Shown: in pieces, positions 7,124 through 36,902 of the stretch
How the letters are laid out: each line of letters opens with the position of its first letter
How positions within the stretch are numbered: the first letter of the stretch is position 1
Source: Serinicoccus profundi
Lineage (GTDB): Bacteria > Actinomycetota > Actinomycetes > Actinomycetales > Dermatophilaceae
Reading direction: 5' to 3'
NCBI RefSeq assembly: GCF_008001015.1
Contig: NZ_CP042862.1
Coordinates: forward strand, 62,001 to 126,000
Length of the DNA stretch: 64,000 bases
The notes under the pieces: generated by a model
Seen by the model: only the letters and a program-made list of their open reading frames with translations
Databases searched by the model: none
What the model was told of the DNA's origin: nothing
Position numbers and translations under genes: made by a program

Positions 7124-7504
7124 ATGCGGAACGTGCTCGGCTCGCCCCTGGAGGAGTGCGGCCTGGACCCGGTGACCGGATTCACCCGGTCCGGGGGCTG
7201 CGAGGTCACCCCGGACGATGCCGGGATCCACGGGATCTGCGCGGTGGTGACCGAGGACTTCCTGGCCCACCAGTTCTCCGTCGGCAACGACCTGCTCACG
7301 CCCCGCCCCGCCTGGGGCTTCCCCGGGCTGACGCCCGGCGACCGCTGGTGCGTGGTCGCGCTGCGCTGGCTGCAGGCGCACCAGGCCGGTCACGCCGCGC
7401 CGGTGGTGCTCGCCAGCACCCACGAGCGGGTGCTCGAGGTCGTCCCCCTCGACCTGCTGCAGCGGTATGCCGTGGACGTGCCGGACGACCTCTCGGGCCT
7501 CTAG
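7124..7504 (+). CDS. DUF2237 family protein
   Basis: This 126-residue protein matches the DUF2237 pattern throughout: NVLGSPLEECGLDPVTGF, HGICAVVTEDFL, GNDLLTPRP, FPGLTPGDRWCVVALRW and a late VVLASTHERVL. The family is widespread in bacteria and eukaryotes and has no established function. The invariant Cys and His residues are present. A CATGCT hexamer sits exactly 6 nt before the ATG, which fits the leaderless pattern seen elsewhere in this window. It converges on the next gene, with a 4-nt gap. Confidence 0.9.
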   Translation: MRNVLGSPLEECGLDPVTGFTRSGGCEVTPDDAGIHGICAVVTEDFLAHQFSVGNDLLTPRPAWGFPGLTPGDRWCVVALRWLQAHQAGHAAPVVLASTHERVLEVVPLDLLQRYAVDVPDDLSGL

Positions 7505-7508
7505 CCGT

Positions 7509-8237
7509 TCACGGCGTGGTCGGCCCCGCCCCGGGCCCGGACTCTGCCGCGGGCTCGGGCTCCGCGGCACGCCGCGACACCGACAGCAGCATGAGCCCGC
7601 CGAGCAGGTCGAGCACCCCGATGACGAGCAGCATGATCGTCAGGACGCCGGTGTCGCCGGCCATGAGCCTCGGGGCGGTGAAGAGGAGGATGACGATGGC
7701 GAGGGCGAGGTAGAACCAGCCGCGTCGGCGCAGGCTCGCGGGGTTGCGCCGGGCGAGCTCGGCGGCCGACAGTCGGGTGGGGCCCGCCTGCTCGGCCGGC
7801 TCCGGCTCCGCGACCGGGTGCGCGAGGGTGCCGTCGAAGTCGCTGCGGGTCTGGTGGTCGTAGGCCTCGTAGCCCGTCTCGTCGGCCACGATCTCCACGG
7901 CGCGGCGGGCCTGGGAGTGCACCCGGTCGAGGTCGTCGTGCTCGCCGTCGGGCAGGCTCACCGACGCCGACCGGTCGAAGAGCTCCACCTGCAGGCCGGT
8001 CTGCGTCGCGGTGAGCTCGCCGTAGACGTCACCCCCGGTCTCCTCGGCGACCCACGTCTCGATCTCACCGTCCAGGACCTCGCGCAGGCGCAGCTCGATG
8101 CGGCGGAAGGTCTCGACACCGGTCGTCAGCGCCTGGGCGTCGGCCTCGGTCGCGGTGTCGTCGGCGTCGGCCTCCGCGAGCGCGTCGTCCCAGTCCTGGC
8201 CGGGGCTCCGGCGGCACAGCGTGATGTCGTAGCTCAT
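7509..8237 (-). CDS. Hypothetical protein with two C-terminal membrane spans
   Basis: The 242-residue product has an acidic soluble N-terminal region of about 165 residues (MSYDITLCRRSPGQDWDDALAEADAD) and then two hydrophobic segments, GWFYLALAIVILLFTAPRLM and a second ending GGLMLLSV, with an acidic Pro-rich tail. The family is not recognised. The soluble domain has an immunity- or adaptor-like look, but there is no motif to support that. The ATG is preceded by AGGATGAG. Confidence 0.6.
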   Translation of the reverse strand: MSYDITLCRRSPGQDWDDALAEADADDTATEADAQALTTGVETFRRIELRLREVLDGEIETWVAEETGGDVYGELTATQTGLQVELFDRSASVSLPDGEHDDLDRVHSQARRAVEIVADETGYEAYDHQTRSDFDGTLAHPVAEPEPAEQAGPTRLSAAELARRNPASLRRRGWFYLALAIVILLFTAPRLMAGDTGVLTIMLLVIGVLDLLGGLMLLSVSRRAAEPEPAAESGPGAGPTTP

Positions 8238-25894: not shown

Positions 25895-26239
25895 TTAGGA
25901 CGCGTCGCCAAGCTTGCGGATGACGTACTGGTTGAGGCTGAGGTGCTCTTCGGCCGCCTTGAAGGCGAGCTGGCGGTGGAGTCGTTCACCGACACGGAGA
26001 TTGAACTTGCCCGAATAGGCGCGAGAGGACAGTGGGTCTGGAATCGGCTCACCGTTGCGGTGCAGGTCTGTAACGACCTCGTCCACCAGATCGCGAAGGC
26101 CTTGCAGGGACTCGTCCTGGGTTGGGGCGAGCCAGGACAGGGAGGGCAGTTCGAGGCAGGTGGCGACGAACTCTTGGTCCTCGGGCGACCAGCTGACGCG
26201 GTAGGTGTAGTGGGTGACGTCGGGGATTGTGGTGCTCAC
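25895..26239 (-). CDS. hicB: HicB-family antitoxin
   Basis: It begins at a GTG overlapping the hicA stop (GTGA). The 114-residue protein has the HicB partial RNase-H-like fold (YTYRVSWSPEDQEFVATCLELPSLSWLAPTQDESLQGL) followed by a C-terminal DNA-binding segment with FNLRVGERLHRQLAFKAAEEHLSLNQYVIRKL, a ribbon-helix-helix of the kind found in HicB antitoxins. It should neutralise HicA and repress the operon, probably at the palindrome at 26487-26516. Confidence 0.88.
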   Translation of the reverse strand: MSTTIPDVTHYTYRVSWSPEDQEFVATCLELPSLSWLAPTQDESLQGLRDLVDEVVTDLHRNGEPIPDPLSSRAYSGKFNLRVGERLHRQLAFKAAEEHLSLNQYVIRKLGDAS

Positions 26240-26454
26240 TGGGCTGCCTCCTTCTTGTCGATCGCTGTCAGGACCTGGCGGACCTGGTACGGGTTGGCCT
26301 TGCCGTGGTCGTTCTGGATATTCACTCGCGGGTCGCCGGGCCAGGGGGTCTTGTACACGGCGTGGGAGCCACCGCTGGTCCTGGGCGGTCCGAAGTAGTG
26401 CTCGCACACCTTCGAGAGGTCCTCATACCGGATGTTGGCCGGGTTGGCCCTCAT
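26236..26454 (-). CDS. hicA: HicA-family mRNA interferase toxin
   Basis: The 72-residue product starts at the ATG at 26454. It has the double-stranded-RNA-binding-like HicA fold with TSGGSHAVYKTPWPG (the catalytic His in G-S-H), then VNIQNDHGKANPYQVRQVLTAI. HicA cleaves mRNA. It is toxin-first, antitoxin-second with a 4-nt overlap, as usual for hicAB. The start has no strong ribosome site, and an upstream in-frame extension is possible. Confidence 0.85.
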   Translation of the reverse strand: MRANPANIRYEDLSKVCEHYFGPPRTSGGSHAVYKTPWPGDPRVNIQNDHGKANPYQVRQVLTAIDKKEAAQ

Positions 26455-26569: not shown

Positions 26570-27495
26570 TCAGGTGCCGGAGGCCATGTAGGCGGCGAGG
26601 ATGTAGTTGGGGTGACGGTCGAGGTTCTTGCGGGCTCGGTCGTAACGCATGGTGGTGCGGGGGTCGGCGTGGCGGGCGGCGTGGACTTCCCGCAGGTCGA
26701 CATCGGCGTCGAGCATGGTGGTGACGAACGTGTGCCGGAGCATGTGGGGGTGCATCCGGGGCAGGTTGATGCCGGCGTCGTCGGCCAGGTGGTGCAGGCG
26801 CCGGGTCGCGGCGTGACGGTCCATCCGTCCGCCCTGCCGGTTGCGCAGGATCGGCCCATCCTCACGGTGGTCGACGGCGCGTTCGATCGCGCGCTGCACG
26901 GCTGGGGGCAGCGGGGTCAGCACCACCTTGCCTCCCTTGCCTCGCACCTTCAGCACCCGGTGGCCGTGCTCCTCGCGCAAGTCCTGGATGTTCGCGCGCA
27001 CGCCTCGAAGATGCGCAGTCCGAGCAGTCCGAGCATGGTGACCAGGGCGAAGTCGTTGATGTTGATACTGGCCCGTGCGGTCTGCAGCATGGCCTCGAAC
27101 TGCAAGTGGGAAAGTCCCAGGGTGGGTGATTCGGGTGGCACGTGCGGTCGGCGGACGTGGTCGGCCGGGGAGGCGGTGAGGACACCGTCGATGACGGCCG
27201 TGCGGTAGAACCCGATCACGACGGACAGCCGCCTTGAGATCGTGGACGGCTTGTACCGGCGGGTCTCCTGCATCCACCGCACGTACAGCTCGACGTGCAC
27301 CCGATGGGCGGCCAGCGGTTCCAGGTGACGTTCGGCGCACCAGGTAAGGAAGGCGCGCAGGTCCGACTCGGTGTGCGTGCGCGTCTGCCCGGTGTAGCGG
27401 GCAAGGTGCGCGGCCACCGCCTGGCGCAGCGCGGCAGCGGAGGGGTCGTCGGTCGATATTGGAACGAGGGCGGAGGTGATCTGGAAGTTGTTCAT
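26570..27495 (-). pseudogene. Frameshifted XerC/D-like tyrosine recombinase
   Basis: The N-terminal part (from the ATG at 27495: MNNFQITSALVPISTDD, SAM-like core-binding domain) runs in one frame to LLGLRIFEAC (the first catalytic Arg). The rest lies in another frame: ANIQDLREEHGHRVLKVRGKGGK, MHPHMLRHTFV (HxxR), ARHADPRTTMRYDRA (His and nucleophile Tyr). The break is at about 27000 in a TGCGCGCG run, where one extra CG dinucleotide would account for it. All six catalytic residues are otherwise kept, so the loss is recent or a sequence error. About 308 residues if repaired. Confidence 0.8.
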
Positions 27496-27636
27496 GAACC
27501 ATCGTGACCGCACATGATCGATGCGAATTCGAGCCGACCGACGCGCGGCAGATCCGGATGCCTCGGCCGTGCCAAGGTAGGGCTGCCGACAACCGCTCTG
27601 TTGTTATACATATGGGAGCCGGGGGCGTCAGTCCAC

Positions 27637-28332
27637 TTAGGTGTAGAAGGGCTGCGGCTGGGTTGGGTCGGCTTCCACCACGTCGAGATCCGCGACGCTG
27701 AGCAGAGCGTCCACGACATCTTGCGACGCTCCGATGCCTGCCCAGTGGGGGTCTACGTCTGCGGCGATGCACCAGGCGTGGTCGGCGGGCCAGACGAAGG
27801 CGGGACACAGGTCCTGCCGGGGTATGCCGGGTGCCATGTCGGCGGCGTCCCAGTTGCCCACGTCCCAGACCGGTCCCCGGAACAGGTAGTAGCTGCGATG
27901 CTCGTGCTCGACCATCGGGCCGTCGAGCACTTCTACGGGGAAGGCTGGGCGAGCTCGGGGGGCCTCGCGCTCCTGTCCTGTGGTGCGGTCGACGAGGAAT
28001 CGGATTGTGTCTGCCCGCAGGTCACCCGCTCCTTCCCACAGGCAGTGAAAACCGTCATCGGGCGTGGTGGTGTGGTGCTGAAGCACCTCGGCCAGTCGGC
28101 GCAACAGTCGTATCTCAGGAACAGGCTCACCGTCATGGTTCACCGCCTCAGTTTCGGGCACTCCAGGCTCGACGGGGTCGGGCAGGAAACGTAGGCGCGC
28201 GTATGCACTGAACACGGGTGGCCCGAAGAGTGGAAGTCTCGGCCAGGGCTGAGCATGCTGCGTCAACCACTCGGCAGCAGACAGGTCAACAGACGGGCTC
28301 AGGCTCACCCCGCCATCCTGGCACCCCAGCAC
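27637..28332 (-). CDS. Hypothetical protein of the accessory island
   Basis: The frame opens with GTG at 28332; a second GTG at 28308 (VSLSPSVDLSAAEWL) may be the true start. The 231-residue product is rich in Pro and Trp (PWPRLPLFGPPVFSAYARLRFLPDP, GFHCLWEGAGDL, HAWCIAADVDPHWAGIGAS) and looks globular. I do not recognise a family, and there are no membrane spans. The segment WPADHAWCIAADVDPHWAGIG resembles the SUKH/SMI1-type proteins that measure ward-like displays, but this is weak. It sits between an integrase remnant and the two-recombinase element. Confidence 0.6.
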   Translation of the reverse strand: MLGCQDGGVSLSPSVDLSAAEWLTQHAQPWPRLPLFGPPVFSAYARLRFLPDPVEPGVPETEAVNHDGEPVPEIRLLRRLAEVLQHHTTTPDDGFHCLWEGAGDLRADTIRFLVDRTTGQEREAPRARPAFPVEVLDGPMVEHEHRSYYLFRGPVWDVGNWDAADMAPGIPRQDLCPAFVWPADHAWCIAADVDPHWAGIGASQDVVDALLSVADLDVVEADPTQPQPFYT

Positions 28333-28380
28333 CGAGCGAACGGTAGGACAGGACGATAGCTGCTCGAGCGTAATGCGGCA

Positions 28381-28393
28381 TTATGCACGTGAT
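28381..28393 (+). repeat. Left terminal inverted repeat of the two-recombinase element
   Basis: TTATGCACGTGAT, an exact inverted copy of 30871-30883. It is immediately preceded by TAATGCGGCA, which forms a second small palindrome with its first bases (TAATGC-G-GCATTA). Confidence 0.65.
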
Positions 28394-28408
28394 GGGGGTG
28401 GGGGTGGT

Positions 28409-29704
28409 TCATGATGCTTCGCCGTTCTCGAGGTTGTTCAGGAGCTGGGTGAAGAGCTGGGCTCGGTGGGTCTGGCCCTTGGCGTGGGCGTCGTCCTGCT
28501 GGGCCTGGAGAGTGGGGCGAAAGGCGATGGTGGTCTGGAAGAAGGTGCAGGTCTCGCAGATCGACTCGAAGGCGCAGTCGAGCTCGGGGGGCCTGGTGCA
28601 GTAGCCGTTGCCGAGCATTCGGGAGTGCTCGCGACGGAGGCGGGCCATGTTGGGTCCGAGGGCGTCGGCGGGCAGCTGGGCGGGGTCGTTGTAGAGGGCG
28701 TCGACCTTGTCGGTGACGGCGAAGTACTCCTCCGCGACGGTGCGGTTGGCGATGCGGGCGTAGCGCAGGGTCATGTCCATCGAGGAGTGGCCTAGCATCG
28801 CGGCGATGGCTTCCAGGGACATGCCGCGGTTGATGGCCTGGGTGGCCAGGGTGTGGCGCAGCTGGTGGGGGTGGATGTGGCCCAGCCCGGCGGCGGCGCC
28901 GGCCTTGTTGATCATCCGGGTGACGGTGTGCCGGTCCAGCGCCCGGCCGTTCTCCCTGGGCAGCAGCAGCGGGTGGGTGGGGTCGACGTGGGTGGCCCGG
29001 TAGTCCTGGATCAGAGTCACCACGTGCGGGTGCAGGGGCAGGTAGCGGTCCTGGTGCAGCTTGCCGACCGGGACGTGCAGCCAGGGTCCGGCGCCGATGT
29101 GCACGAGCGCGTCGGCGGGCAGCGCGGTGTACTCGCTGACCCGCAGACCGGTGCGCAGCAGCACCTCCACGGTCACGCGCAGCAGCATCCGGGGCTGGGC
29201 CTGGGCGGCGCGCAGCAGCCGGGCGGCGCTCGGGTCGTCCAGTGCTTTGGGCAGGGGCCGGTCCTGGCGGGGCAGGTCCCCGGAGAACATCGGCACCCGG
29301 GCCGGGGCGTCGTCCCAGTCCCACTCGGCGATCCGGATGAAGAACATCCGCAGCGTGCCGAGCCGGCCGGCGATGGTGGCCAGGCCCAGCGGGGCGCCGC
29401 CGCGGCCGGGGCGTGCGGCCAGCCACGGCTTGTAGGCCTCGATGGTGGACCGGTCGATGTCGGCCACGCAGGCCAGGGCCGGGGTGTGGGTGAGCAGGTA
29501 GGTGGCGAAGCAGCGCAGCGACTGGTCGGCGCCGTTGACGCTGCCCGGGCGCAGCACGCAGGCGATCTGGGTCAGGTAGGCCTGCATGGTGGCCGCGACC
29601 ATGGGCAGCTCGGCGGCGATCTGGTCCCAGGTCGCGACCGGTGCGGCGCCGCCGCGCTGGTCCTGCCCGGGGTCGAACCGGACCGGCAGAGCGGTGGTGC
29701 TCAT
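28409..29704 (-). CDS. Tyrosine recombinase with C-terminal Cys cluster
   Basis: The 431-residue protein has an N-terminal SAM-like domain (about 30-170) and a catalytic domain with LLRTGLRVSEY (Arg), KLHQDRYLPLH (Lys region), HIHPHQLRHTLAT (HxxR), LGHSSMDMTLRYARI (His and nucleophile Tyr). After the catalytic core it has an added tail with four cysteines, GNGYCTRPPELDCAFESICETCTFF, a probable zinc knuckle. This tail is typical of transposon-type tyrosine recombinases and not of XerC/D. The start has GGAGG upstream and overlaps the preceding recombinase stop by ATGA. Confidence 0.88.
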   Translation of the reverse strand: MSTTALPVRFDPGQDQRGGAAPVATWDQIAAELPMVAATMQAYLTQIACVLRPGSVNGADQSLRCFATYLLTHTPALACVADIDRSTIEAYKPWLAARPGRGGAPLGLATIAGRLGTLRMFFIRIAEWDWDDAPARVPMFSGDLPRQDRPLPKALDDPSAARLLRAAQAQPRMLLRVTVEVLLRTGLRVSEYTALPADALVHIGAGPWLHVPVGKLHQDRYLPLHPHVVTLIQDYRATHVDPTHPLLLPRENGRALDRHTVTRMINKAGAAAGLGHIHPHQLRHTLATQAINRGMSLEAIAAMLGHSSMDMTLRYARIANRTVAEEYFAVTDKVDALYNDPAQLPADALGPNMARLRREHSRMLGNGYCTRPPELDCAFESICETCTFFQTTIAFRPTLQAQQDDAHAKGQTHRAQLFTQLLNNLENGEAS

Positions 29705-30810
29705 CGCAGCCTCCGGAACCCCGGCAGCGCCGGTCGCTCACGCGGCGGCGGTGTGAGGGTCGGGAGGGCGCCGGGGGTGCCGGCGAAGACCTGGGCGTCG
29801 ATGACCTCGGCGGCCCTGCGGTACTGGGAGGCCAACCAGCAGTCGTCGGCCAGGTGCAGGTAGATCCGGGTGGACTCGATCGAGGCGTGCCCGGCCTGTG
29901 CCTGGACGGCCTCCAGGGCCATCCCGGCCTCCCGCAGCCGGGTCAGGCAGGTGTGCCGCAGCTCGTGGCAGGTGCCGTGGGACAGGCCCGCGCGGGCCCG
30001 GGCACCGGTCAGGACCTGGTCGATGCCGCGCACGGTCAGCGGTTGCCCGCGGGTGGGACCCTTGAGCACGACGAACAACCGGTCGGTCGCGGCGTCGGCG
30101 GGACGTTCGGTGGTCAGGTAGTCGGCGACCGCGGTGAAGAACCTGGCCGAGACGGGCACGATGCGTTGCCGTCCGCCCTTGCCCTCGGCGATGAACACCC
30201 GCCGTTCGGCGAGGCGCAGGTCTTCCAGGCGCAGGCCCAGGACCTCGCAGCGGCGCAGCCCGCCGAGCACCATCGCCGCGACCATGGCCCGGTCCCGGTG
30301 GGTGCGCAGGGCGCCGGTGAGGGCGTCGACCTCGGCTGGGGCCAGGATCTGCGGCAGGGACCGGACCCGCCTGGTCAACGGCACGCCCTGGGAGGGCCGG
30401 GATCTCTCCCGGCGGGTCGGCAGCCCCCGGGGAACCGGGTTGGTGACCACGTCCCCGCGGACCTGCAAGAAGGCGTAGAACCCGGAGATCGTGGAGACCC
30501 GCCGGGCGATCGTGGCCGGCCCGACCCCGCCACCACCGTGCCGGGGCAGGCCCTGGACGACGCCGGCGGGCCGGCCGGTGCGCTGGGCGGTGATGAAGGC
30601 GAGCACGTCGGCCGGGACCGCCTCGGTCGGGTCCTTGCCGAGCACGCCCAGGAAGATCCTCAGGTCGTACGCCGCGGCCAGGACCGTGTTCGGCCGGCAC
30701 CGCCCGGACAGGAAGTCCAGGTAGTCGTCCGCGCAGGCGACCCCGACCCGCAGCAGCACCTCACCCGAGGGCCCTCGCGACCTGACCAGACACGGATCCA
30801 GACCCGACAT
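29701..30810 (-). CDS. Tyrosine recombinase, first gene of the two-recombinase element
   Basis: I chose the ATG at 30810 because GGGAGG lies 7 nt upstream; a longer frame begins at 30846. The 369-residue protein has an N-terminal core-binding domain (DDYLDFLSGRCRPNTVLAAAYDLRIFL) and the catalytic set: LGGLRRCEVLGLR (Arg), AEGKGGRQRIVP (Lys), CHELRHTCLTRLR (HxxR), AGHASIESTRIYLHLA (His, nucleophile Tyr). It precedes and overlaps its partner, so both are made together; paired catalysts acting on the two element ends are likely. Confidence 0.88.
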   Translation of the reverse strand: MSGLDPCLVRSRGPSGEVLLRVGVACADDYLDFLSGRCRPNTVLAAAYDLRIFLGVLGKDPTEAVPADVLAFITAQRTGRPAGVVQGLPRHGGGGVGPATIARRVSTISGFYAFLQVRGDVVTNPVPRGLPTRRERSRPSQGVPLTRRVRSLPQILAPAEVDALTGALRTHRDRAMVAAMVLGGLRRCEVLGLRLEDLRLAERRVFIAEGKGGRQRIVPVSARFFTAVADYLTTERPADAATDRLFVVLKGPTRGQPLTVRGIDQVLTGARARAGLSHGTCHELRHTCLTRLREAGMALEAVQAQAGHASIESTRIYLHLADDCWLASQYRRAAEVIDAQVFAGTPGALPTLTPPPRERPALPGFRRLR

Positions 30811-30870
30811 GTCACGACCTCCCGGTCCCTCGACCATCAGCCACACCGGCTGGTCGAAATCTCCCGGAAG

Positions 30871-30883
30871 ATCACGTGCATAA
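30871..30883 (-). repeat. Right terminal inverted repeat of the two-recombinase element
   Basis: ATCACGTGCATAA, exact reverse complement of 28381-28393. The two sequences diverge at once inside the repeats. Confidence 0.65.
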
Positions 30884-31026
30884 CAAGCAGAAGCGGATGC
30901 CCAGGGCGCCCACCCGCAGTGAGCCCCCGACCTGCGGAGATCGACATGCCCGCGTGTCGCCCACAGGCGCCAGCAGATTTCTTGCTAGTCTGAGCACCAG
31001 TTGGGGAGAACTACACCCTCAACCCG

Positions 31027-32750: not shown

Positions 32751-32806
32751 CGTAGCGGTGCCCTCCCAGCTCGACATCACCGTTGTCCGAGCAAAGGAGC
32801 ACAGCA

Positions 32807-33991
32807 ATGGACGAGCAGGAGTCACCGCGGGTCGTGATCGGGATGGACCCGCACAAGCGCAGCGTCACGATCGAGGTCATGACCGCCGACGAGTCCGTCG
32901 TCGGAGGCGGCCGCTTTCCCACGGACGCCGAGGGATACACCCGGCTGCCGGCCTACGCCCGTCAGTGGCCTGAGCGGGTGTGGGCGGTCGAGGGCTGCGC
33001 CGGGATCGGCAAGCACGTCGCCGACCGGCTCGTCGCCGACGGCGAGGACGTCGTGGACGTGCCGGCGAAGATGTCGGCGCGGGTGCGGATCTTCGCCACC
33101 GGGCAGGGCCGCAAGACCGACGCCACCGACGCCCATTCCATCGCCCTGGTCGGCGTCCGCATGAGCGGGCTGCGCCCGGTCATCAACGACGAGCAGCTCG
33201 AGGTGCTGCGGATGTGCGTGGACCGCCGCCGCTCCCTGGGTGAGGAGCACACCCGCAAGATATGTCAGCTGCACAAACTCCTGCTCGAGCTCATCCCCGG
33301 CGGCGCCAAGACGTTCCTGTCCGCGACCCAGGCCAAAGAGCTGCTGAAGAAGGTCCGCCCCACCACCGCGGCGGGCAAGGTCCGCAAGGCCCACGCCCTG
33401 GAACTGACAGCTGACCTGGCCACGATCTACGCCCGCACCAAGGCCGCGGACAAGGAGCTCAAAGCCCTCGTCGCCGAGACCGGGTCCTCGCTGATGGACC
33501 TGCACGGCATCGGACCCTCCGGCGCCGCGCGGCTCCTCGTCGAGGTCGGCGACATCACCCGCTTCCCCGACCGCAACCACTTCGCGTCCTGGACCGGCAC
33601 CGCGCCCATCGACGCCTCCTCCGGCGAGCACGTCCGCCACCGCCTCTCCCGAGGCGGGAACCGGCAGATCAACCGGGTGCTGCACGTCATGGCCATCGTC
33701 CAGCTCCGCACGAGAACCACCGAGGGCCGCGCCTACTACGACCGGAAGAAAGCCGCGGGGAAGACATCGATGGAAGCACTGCGGTGCCTCAAACGGCGCC
33801 TGTCCGACCTGGTCTACAAGGCGATGCTCGACGACCTCGCCCGACGCGCGACGACGGGCCCGGGAGGGCAAAGGGGTGACGACTCTGACTCCAGCGCGAC
33901 CGGCTCACAACCCGCTGCCGGCTCTTCGGACAAGCCACTTCCCGGACCCGCCACCACAAAGCCTAGAACGACCCTGCCAGCGGCGTCTTGA
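32807..33991 (+). CDS. IS110-family transposase
   Basis: The ATG at 32807 follows AAAGGAG. The 394-residue protein has the DEDD (RuvC-like) N-terminal domain: VVIGMDPHKRSVTIEV (first Asp), VWAVEGCAGIG (Glu), RKTDATDAHSIALV (two Asp). A helical spacer precedes the C-terminal Transposase_20 domain LMDLHGIGPSGAARLLVEVG...FASWTGTAPIDASSG...HRLSRGGNRQINRVLHVMA, which holds the catalytic Ser of SRGGN. The Ser/Thr-Pro-rich tail after residue 345 is extra and low complexity. All catalytic positions are kept, so it may be active. Confidence 0.93.
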   Translation: MDEQESPRVVIGMDPHKRSVTIEVMTADESVVGGGRFPTDAEGYTRLPAYARQWPERVWAVEGCAGIGKHVADRLVADGEDVVDVPAKMSARVRIFATGQGRKTDATDAHSIALVGVRMSGLRPVINDEQLEVLRMCVDRRRSLGEEHTRKICQLHKLLLELIPGGAKTFLSATQAKELLKKVRPTTAAGKVRKAHALELTADLATIYARTKAADKELKALVAETGSSLMDLHGIGPSGAARLLVEVGDITRFPDRNHFASWTGTAPIDASSGEHVRHRLSRGGNRQINRVLHVMAIVQLRTRTTEGRAYYDRKKAAGKTSMEALRCLKRRLSDLVYKAMLDDLARRATTGPGGQRGDDSDSSATGSQPAAGSSDKPLPGPATTKPRTTLPAAS

Positions 33992-36456: not shown

Positions 36457-36902
36457 GTAGGCGAGGGTACAGCCTGTTGGGTCGGACTGACCCGAGAGTG
36501 CTGCCAGTCGAGACAGGCCGCCAAGATTGACGACTCACCCCCTCCGCCTATCGAAGGGCCCCGCGTGACGCGGCTGGCGGGCGTTCCCTTGGGAATGGCC
36601 GGATCCTGCATGGCGAGGTCTACCGAGGAGGAGTGAACGATCCGCTCATCGGCAGATCCGGTCTGTCATGACCTCGGCACTTGGGCGGCAGCGCCGGCGA
36701 CGAGGCCATAACACGCTGCTTGGAGCCTCCGAGACGCAAGATCGGCGTGGCGCGGTCACGACCGTTTTCGAGTCGCGGTCGCGCCCAGTGGTCTGGCCCA
36801 TCACCGCAGGTGCGGGACCGGCTCGATACCCCGACTCGAGAGGGACGTGGCCCGGAATCCGTCACAGGACGTACTTTCAGACCGCGGCCTGAGTTGGACT
36901 GC
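36457..36902. other. 446-bp intergenic stretch with no supportable gene
   Basis: This lies between the PIN-like gene and the 3' end of the lycopene cyclase gene. G+C rises from island-like to chromosome-like across it, so the right boundary of the island probably falls here. Frames on both strands are short, Arg/Ser-rich shadows. I see no repeat that matches the sequence after crtI. Confidence 0.6.

Follow-up and report, generated by a model that had tools for sequence, protein, structure and literature searches.

A probable two-recombinase transposon of Serinicoccus profundi related to Tn554, with short inverted ends and a recurring GCGGCA target

The element and its two genes

A stretch of 64,000 nucleotides from Serinicoccus profundi (contig NZ_CP042862.1, positions 62,001 to 126,000; hereafter the window, from whose first letter coordinates are counted) carries a compact element composed of two tyrosine recombinase genes between short inverted repeats. 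Both genes lie on the minus strand, the first at 29701-30846 (381 aa) and the second at 28409-29704 (431 aa); they overlap by ATGA, and exact inverted 13-mers stand at 28381-28393 and 30871-30883. A reading made from the sequence only had proposed this 2,503-bp unit, and the overlap, the length and the exact repeats are all borne out. The stop codon of the second gene (tnpB) lies 15 bp from the terminal repeat, leaving no room for a third gene, and a TnpC partner is not present. The features of the element are:

28381-30889, minus strand: entire element, from one repeat to the other and including the CAAGCA that it brings at its tnpA end (three genome copies end here, and relatives have the same kind of ends)
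28381-28393, plus strand: terminal repeat, tnpB side, TTATGCACGTGAT (exact 13-mer)
30871-30883, minus strand: terminal repeat, tnpA side, TTATGCACGTGAT on the minus strand (exact 13-mer)
29701-30846, minus strand: first recombinase, P0002, 381 aa, TnpA-like of the short type (PF00589 4.4e-33; homologs)
28409-29704, minus strand: second recombinase, P0001, 431 aa, TnpB-like, lacking the N-terminal extension (PF00589 1.2e-27)
C369, C377, C383 and C386 of P0001: four-Cys tail
28375-28380, plus strand: target six GCGGCA, apparently kept at the tnpB end
30884-30889, plus strand: element-borne six CAAGCA, tnpA end

An equivalent notation gives a 2506-bp element, 28381-30886, between GCA direct repeats. 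Both P0001 and P0002 are PF00589 proteins, and their scores with Xer models fall far below the equivalog cut-offs. A bipartite module (BIM), defined in the parts of the source compared as one recombinase with a conserved non-recombinase protein (Van Houdt et al. 2012, PMC3414803), was considered and rejected, both proteins here being recombinases.

Copies and ends

The genome of S. profundi (3,475,711 bp) contains six exact copies of the 13-mer, arranged in three inverted pairs approximately 2.5 kb apart, and one further place at one mismatch; the reversed control has none. The two other copies (C1:1310370-1312869 and C1:1544807-1547306) measure 2500 bp each, against 2503 bp for the window copy, which is 99.8% identical to either. 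Homology ends just outside the 13-mers and the flanks differ; copies 2 and 3 have approximately 510 bp of additional common sequence on the tnpB side. Common to all three copies beyond the 13-mers are 6 bp on the tnpB side (GCGGCA) and 8 bp on the tnpA side (CAAGCAGA). The exact 13-mer is also found at both ends of a recombinase couple on a Nocardioides plasmid. Lone exact 13-mers with other interiors occur in related genomes (L043 5616; L050 6467; L051 9586), possibly as remnants or as other elements with the same ends. In a copy from a close relative (G004; L040 7678-9436), the first recombinase gene is interrupted by approximately 1.8 kb of other DNA.

Of 91 homologous loci, 45 could be given both ends, 39 of them by pattern and six through Mycobacterium 5' ends added after reading. 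In a test independent of the pattern, a perfect 13/13 inverted pair was present in 27 of the 72 loci with both flanks (the three own copies included), compared with 1/600 mixed-locus reversed controls. The middle bases of the ends vary between clades, yet change together at both ends (e.g. TTATGCACGTGAT, TTATGCCGGTGAT and TATTCCGGTAATC). It had been asked whether both ends always show the same 13-mer: perfect pairing is seen in these 27 loci, whereas the exact 13-mer of the window is confined to close relatives. Four loci (L082, L087, L097 and L100) carry the 3' end motif twice on the tnpB side, at a spacing of 32 bp, and in Humibacillus (L071 5001-6487) the 3' end lies approximately 200 bp beyond the second gene rather than approximately 18 bp.

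That the repeats are a chance match and the genes an ordinary XerC/XerD-type pair can hardly be entertained. Both proteins do score with Xer models, below cut-off, but the reading is contradicted by the three near-identical copies, the same 13-mer in Nocardioides, its exact presence in 4/58 genomes (control 0) and the excess of perfect pairs over controls. A truncated RIT element that has lost its third recombinase, which would account for overlapping adjacent tyrosine recombinase genes between inverted repeats, is also highly improbable. The units measured in 44 loci (the 45 with both ends, less L095, which is too short beyond its end) span 2375-3038 bp, too short for a third recombinase, and none was found in them, in keeping with the sequence-only reading. 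On these lengths the truncated form was rejected, the proteins of RIT elements themselves not having been compared. The Bacillota proteins discussed below also argue against it. The unit stands as a compact mobile pair of recombinases, present in multiple copies, with real short terminal repeats and matching ends in homologous pairs of other genera.

The recombinase family

A search of plasmids recovered the Nocardioides couple, 74% and 70% identical to the window pair, and Rhodococcus couples with a long second recombinase. The pair on pREL1 (L056) is 57% and 53% identical to the window pair and is presumably the Tn554-related couple without TnpC given for R. erythropolis PR4 plasmid pREL1 (Famint36 and Famint41) in Table 2 of Van Houdt et al. 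(2012, PMC3414803, as far as compared). The earlier suggestion of a class distinct from everything known is not upheld, in that the window pair belongs with the Tn554-related actinobacterial recombinase couples without TnpC. In the compared parts of that source, such couples include one abnormally long recombinase of 611-828 aa (PMC3414803). The second recombinase of the window, at 431 aa, falls outside this range and is without the N-terminal extension of approximately 200 aa.

A genome scan for the couple confirmed 115 loci, of which 80 were kept. By record title these comprise three from Chloroflexota, one from Gemmatimonadota and one unassigned, the rest being Actinomycetota, with many metagenome bins. 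A tree of 79 second-recombinase sequences puts its 44 short forms on one side of a single branch (100/100), nested among long forms; named fragments, near-copies and some listed loci were left out of this tree, and L278, L130 and L057 form long branches. As judged from this tree, the short second recombinase is a distinct, strongly supported subclade.

One recombinase had been noted to carry a four-Cys tail, and this is confirmed at C369, C377, C383 and C386 of P0001. The four cysteines are invariant in 19 aligned rows, and the same NGYC...C...C..C tail is present in a Lysinibacillus TnpB encoded beside fexA (26% identity to the window protein), which we take to be of Tn554 type. Because of this invariance and of its occurrence in Lysinibacillus, the tail looks like a family mark and no peculiarity of the window element. 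The plasmid matches that follow the actinobacterial couples include Bacillota proteins (E 9e-21 to 2e-18 over 77-81% of the query), presumably also Tn554-type TnpB; these matches, with the same Cys tail in the one compared, are a second point against a RIT origin.

Flanking hexamers and a proposed mechanism

In the short-form clade, the six bases outside the repeats, read outward, are mostly CAAGCA at the tnpA end (27 flanks, one of them a spurious second match in L069) and TGCCG[AC] at the tnpB end (26 flanks). When both sixes are read from tnpA to tnpB, their first three bases are identical in 24 of 27 short-form loci (TGC in 19, CGC in 3, GTG in 2) and their last three in 0/27. Shuffles gave a mean of 15.4 loci with equal first three bases, and 0/20000 reached 24. 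The element's own last three bases are TTG in 20/27 loci, adjoining the shared three at the tnpA end.

Unoccupied counterparts of the tnpB-side flank were found in two settings. The flank of the occupied locus L117 recurs through TCGGCA, with no element there, at L214 elsewhere in the same genome and at L209 in another genome (61 bp at 95% and 67 bp at 91%). Own copies 2 and 3 adjoin a pair of genes that is BrnT-like (27.8 bits against a Pfam cut-off of 34.5) and is followed by GCGGCA. Relatives of this pair in seven unoccupied places have GCGGCA at the matching point and then other DNA; they were aligned to the junction in three places and lie within approximately 25 bp of it in the rest, one being known only by its last ~110 bp. 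These unoccupied junctions identify the target's six as the one left beside tnpB; at the tnpA end, the shared three are joined by three last bases that come with the element. A simple-palindrome reading of the flanks (CGCTCA...TGAGCG) was replaced by this junction reading after the site and junction searches.

A mechanism can be proposed in which each 13-bp repeat would serve as a recombinase half-site. Excision would join the ends as repeat, 6-bp spacer and repeat, forming a Xer/dif-like core on a circle, and integration would proceed by strand exchange with a chromosomal core of two half-sites around xCGGCA, for which a spacer match over approximately three bases (TGC, CGC or GTG) may suffice. 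The same strand would be exchanged in excision and in integration; repeated exchange of one strand would give the arrangement seen, with the target six beside tnpB and the element's own six beside tnpA. In the genus, the chromosomal core GCGGCA/TCGGCA would be the crossover of an apparent cassette array beside a XerC-like recombinase gene. The circle, the strand use, the assignment of each enzyme to a half-site and any activity are predictions of this model, while the ends, copies, homology, spacer pattern and recurring junction are read directly from the DNA. The element is best interpreted as an autonomous Tn554-related transposon that consists of two tyrosine recombinases and its ends and follows this spacer rule (probability approximately 0.8).

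Several observations weigh against this interpretation. A pair of ends was lacking in 46/91 loci (21 with one end, 25 with none), contigs stopping early in some and not in others. No perfect pair was present in 45/72 loci, many of the best matches at 10-12/13 falling at chance-like places, and a 12/13 match was reached in 34/600 controls. The shuffle value is only a guide, the sequences being related. The three-base rule is violated at L061 (GATTCA/TGCCGC) and reduced to two bases at L070 and L097, and the long-form L056 has no common base at either edge. Empty sites at the same boundary had also been sought in relatives; for the window copy, 31 genomes of the genus yielded no orthologous one in which both flanks are present.

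The target and its apparent cassette junctions

Target specificity takes the form of a recurring xCGGCA core, with no single fixed site. A 28-letter site pattern matched in 11/58 genomes, compared with 0/58 controls. A search with a 20-mer site allowing three mismatches was weak, matching in 29/31 genomes with the reversed control also matching often. A 39-position model, R1, matched at E <= 0.001 in 29/31 genomes of the genus and in 1/27 others; its 16 founding sites had been chosen by pattern, and some of them are counted again in later results. Target-like sites sometimes occur in same-strand groups, 58-99 bp apart. Three such sites, 58-59 bp apart, lie at L208 7119-7273 (C1:327618-327771 of the same S. 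profundi genome) beside a second XerC-like recombinase gene (7368-8180, minus strand); no tandem repeat was called at these three sites. The principal surprise of the locus is this target.

The corresponding features of the window, which precede and follow the element, are:

26573-27513, minus strand: gene for the XerC-like recombinase of the proposed platform, divided over two frames here, with a single open frame in L275
27545-27550, plus strand: GCGGCA junction resembling attI, immediately upstream of the gene for the XerC-like recombinase
27551-28380, plus strand: cassette-like unit 1, one gene (27637-28332, minus strand, no family found), with a homolog between GCGGCA junctions in L279
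36640-36676, plus strand: unoccupied target-like site, R1 29.9 bits, one of the 16 model-building sites

The order is thus split recombinase gene (26573-27513), junction (27545-27550), unit 1 (27551-28380), element (28381-30889), more genes and the unoccupied site (36640-36676). The latter lies upstream of a PIN_8 gene in the same orientation as the occupied site. Because its gene is split between two frames, the XerC-like recombinase is probably inactive in this genome. A recombinase matching window positions 26950-27513 is present in 15/31 genomes of the genus. By its model score it is not an integron integrase (TIGR02249 54.3 bits, against a cut-off of 265).

Given that the element lies exactly between two GCGGCA junctions, and that the element six and the platform six both end in GCA, it might be a passive cassette, moved into the junction by the XerC-like platform recombinase and not by its own pair. 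This is unlikely. The XerC-like recombinase was absent at E <= 1e-25 from the examined flanks of 81 other element loci, four of them of this genus; among the 11 element loci of the genus it was found in the examined flanks of the window copy alone and was missing from the other 10. Furthermore, the repeats differ from one tnpAB clade to another, and other target sites are used by sister clades that have ends of this kind. Movement by the element's own two recombinases remains the preferred reading.

The nature of the junctions themselves is less certain. Thirteen distinct loci have GCGGCA upstream of the gene for the XerC-like recombinase; different genes follow it, although L272/L273 and L211/L276 are also alike beyond the junction. 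Identity averages 0.70 over the 20 nt leading up to GCGGCA and 0.34 over the next 20 nt (14 rows, two duplicates having been dropped and one doubtful row, L265, included, in which GCGGCA is probably a chance match). A BrnT-like pair lies between the recombinase gene and the junction in four further loci. In eight complete chromosomes, listed R1 sites lie <=18 kb from 9/9 recombinase loci (0.45 expected) and <=7 kb from 4/9 (0.19 expected), as counted with the sites listed in the cut-off table, one rounded length (G002) and limits on distance that were set when the positions were already known. A pattern that would suit gene units exchanged at a fixed crossover beside a recombinase gene is present, and it is not general.

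The target may instead be a dispersed intergenic repeat or an island hotspot, with the XerC-like neighbour a coincidence and no cassette system involved, a reading that falls well short of even odds. Islands tend to gather mobile genes in any case, many R1 sites are solitary, and the XerC-like recombinase accompanies only one of the 11 element loci of the genus. Among three relatives of the unit-1 gene, only that at L279 lies between GCGGCA junctions, those at L282 and L283 not doing so in the sequence examined, and neither of two relatives of the gene on the element's other side (L280 and L281) has a clear junction. The attC of integrons is a single-stranded folded site. No attC-like single-strand folding was found here: eight junction-side ends folded no better than shuffles, with z from -0.95 to 1.13 (1.01, -0.75; then -0.82, 0.03, -0.95, 1.13, -0.15, 0.93), the L279 stretch, which ends before its junction, not being counted among the eight. 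Against a coincidence stand the 13 recombinase-associated junctions with their drop in identity, the seven places where relatives of the BrnT-like pair end at GCGGCA before different DNA, and the proximity of R1 sites to the recombinase loci. In sum, the target resembles an integron crossover, with a link to the recombinase gene that is not general.

It is tentatively proposed, at somewhat less than even odds, that Actinomycetota of this genus carry an undescribed integron-like platform, consisting of a XerC-like recombinase, an attI-like GCGGCA and units of one or a few genes, with no folded attC, and that one clade of two-recombinase transposons has specialised on its crossover while sister clades use motifs of other mobility genes. 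That the platform would be a true cassette system is held with the same reserve. Searches of the open-licence literature, where absence carries little weight, brought up neither this target nor an integron-like platform of these bacteria.

Insertion sites of the sister clades

Relatives with the long-form second recombinase insert elsewhere than at GCGGCA junctions. At eight Mycobacterium loci (L102, L105, L108-L110, L113, L114 and L119), the frame restored across the flanks belongs, by eye, to a tyrosine recombinase gene, the insertion falling at LG/H in six loci and at LD/H in two. At L102 and L110 the interrupted gene resembles, by eye, their own second recombinase. In all eight, the six beside tnpA is almost invariant and that beside tnpB is the target's own; three of these loci have nearly the same target. 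Other long forms lie at conserved motifs, again by eye, of an IS21-type-like (L080, L083 and L107) or IS3-type-like (L091) transposase gene. At the three IS21-type-like loci it is the tnpB end that has the constant six (TAGAGG), and the two sixes agree in their last two bases, which would fit exchange of the other strand. The sister clades may specialise on conserved motifs of other mobility genes, namely the LG/H or LD/H active-site codons of tyrosine recombinase genes, and IS21 and IS3 transposase genes, a suggestion made jointly with that of the integron-like platform and at the same odds.

Comparison with known systems

The window element has much in common with the couples of Van Houdt et al., which are likewise adjacent homologous tyrosine recombinases of Actinobacteria without TnpC, some in multiple copies (PMC3414803, in part). 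It differs in its second recombinase (431 aa compared with 611-828 aa), and the pREL1 copy has other flanking bases; terminal repeats, a spacer rule and targets are not described in the parts of PMC3414803 compared. Tn554 of Staphylococcus shares two tyrosine recombinases, imperfect terminal repeats and the behaviour of a six-base flank, as far as PMC10214605 was compared; the sequence-only reading, which had Tn554 without inverted repeats, is corrected on this point by the imperfect ones reported there. Unlike Tn554, the window element is without TnpC and cargo and has a short TnpB and perfect repeats.

Strand-biased circularizing elements (SEs), in the compared parts of PMC10214605, share inverted terminal motifs, a 6-bp spacer in the joined form and one flank set by the element with the other set by the target. 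They differ in having four core genes and a median length of 15.7 kb, against two genes in 2.5 kb, and in the fate of the spacer. For Tn554 and SEs, PMC10214605 (in part) reports that a six-base copy of the donor's left flank ends up on the right of the new site, whereas the last three bases of the two sixes differ in 27/27 short-form loci, a pattern that such copying would not appear to give. RIT elements also have tyrosine recombinase genes between inverted repeats, but with three recombinases and 34-bp repeats (PMC10214605, in part). The target region is like an integron in its recombinase gene, adjacent insertion point and proposed units joined at a shared crossover, and unlike one in its recombinase score (54.3/265 bits), its core GCGGCA and its folding, which is no better than that of shuffles.

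According to the parts of PMC10214605 compared, empty sites and the mode of movement have not been tested for Tn554-related elements, and their host range has had no formal study. Since the present family combines just two genes with clear ends, a spacer rule that can be read off and a target that recurs, it makes strand exchange testable with two proteins and two short DNA sites. Complete integrons are not reported in Actinobacteria in the compared parts of PMC9024848, which give one lone integrase and a few arrays without one. If the target is as it looks, it would represent a gene-collecting system in a phylum in which no complete integrons have been found (PMC9024848, in part).

Neighbouring genes

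Directly behind the split XerC-like recombinase gene is a HicB-family gene (25895-26407, minus strand), and a similar protein, by eye, is encoded behind its relative in L275. Between the element and the next target-like site lies an IS110-family transposase gene (window 32783-33991, plus strand).

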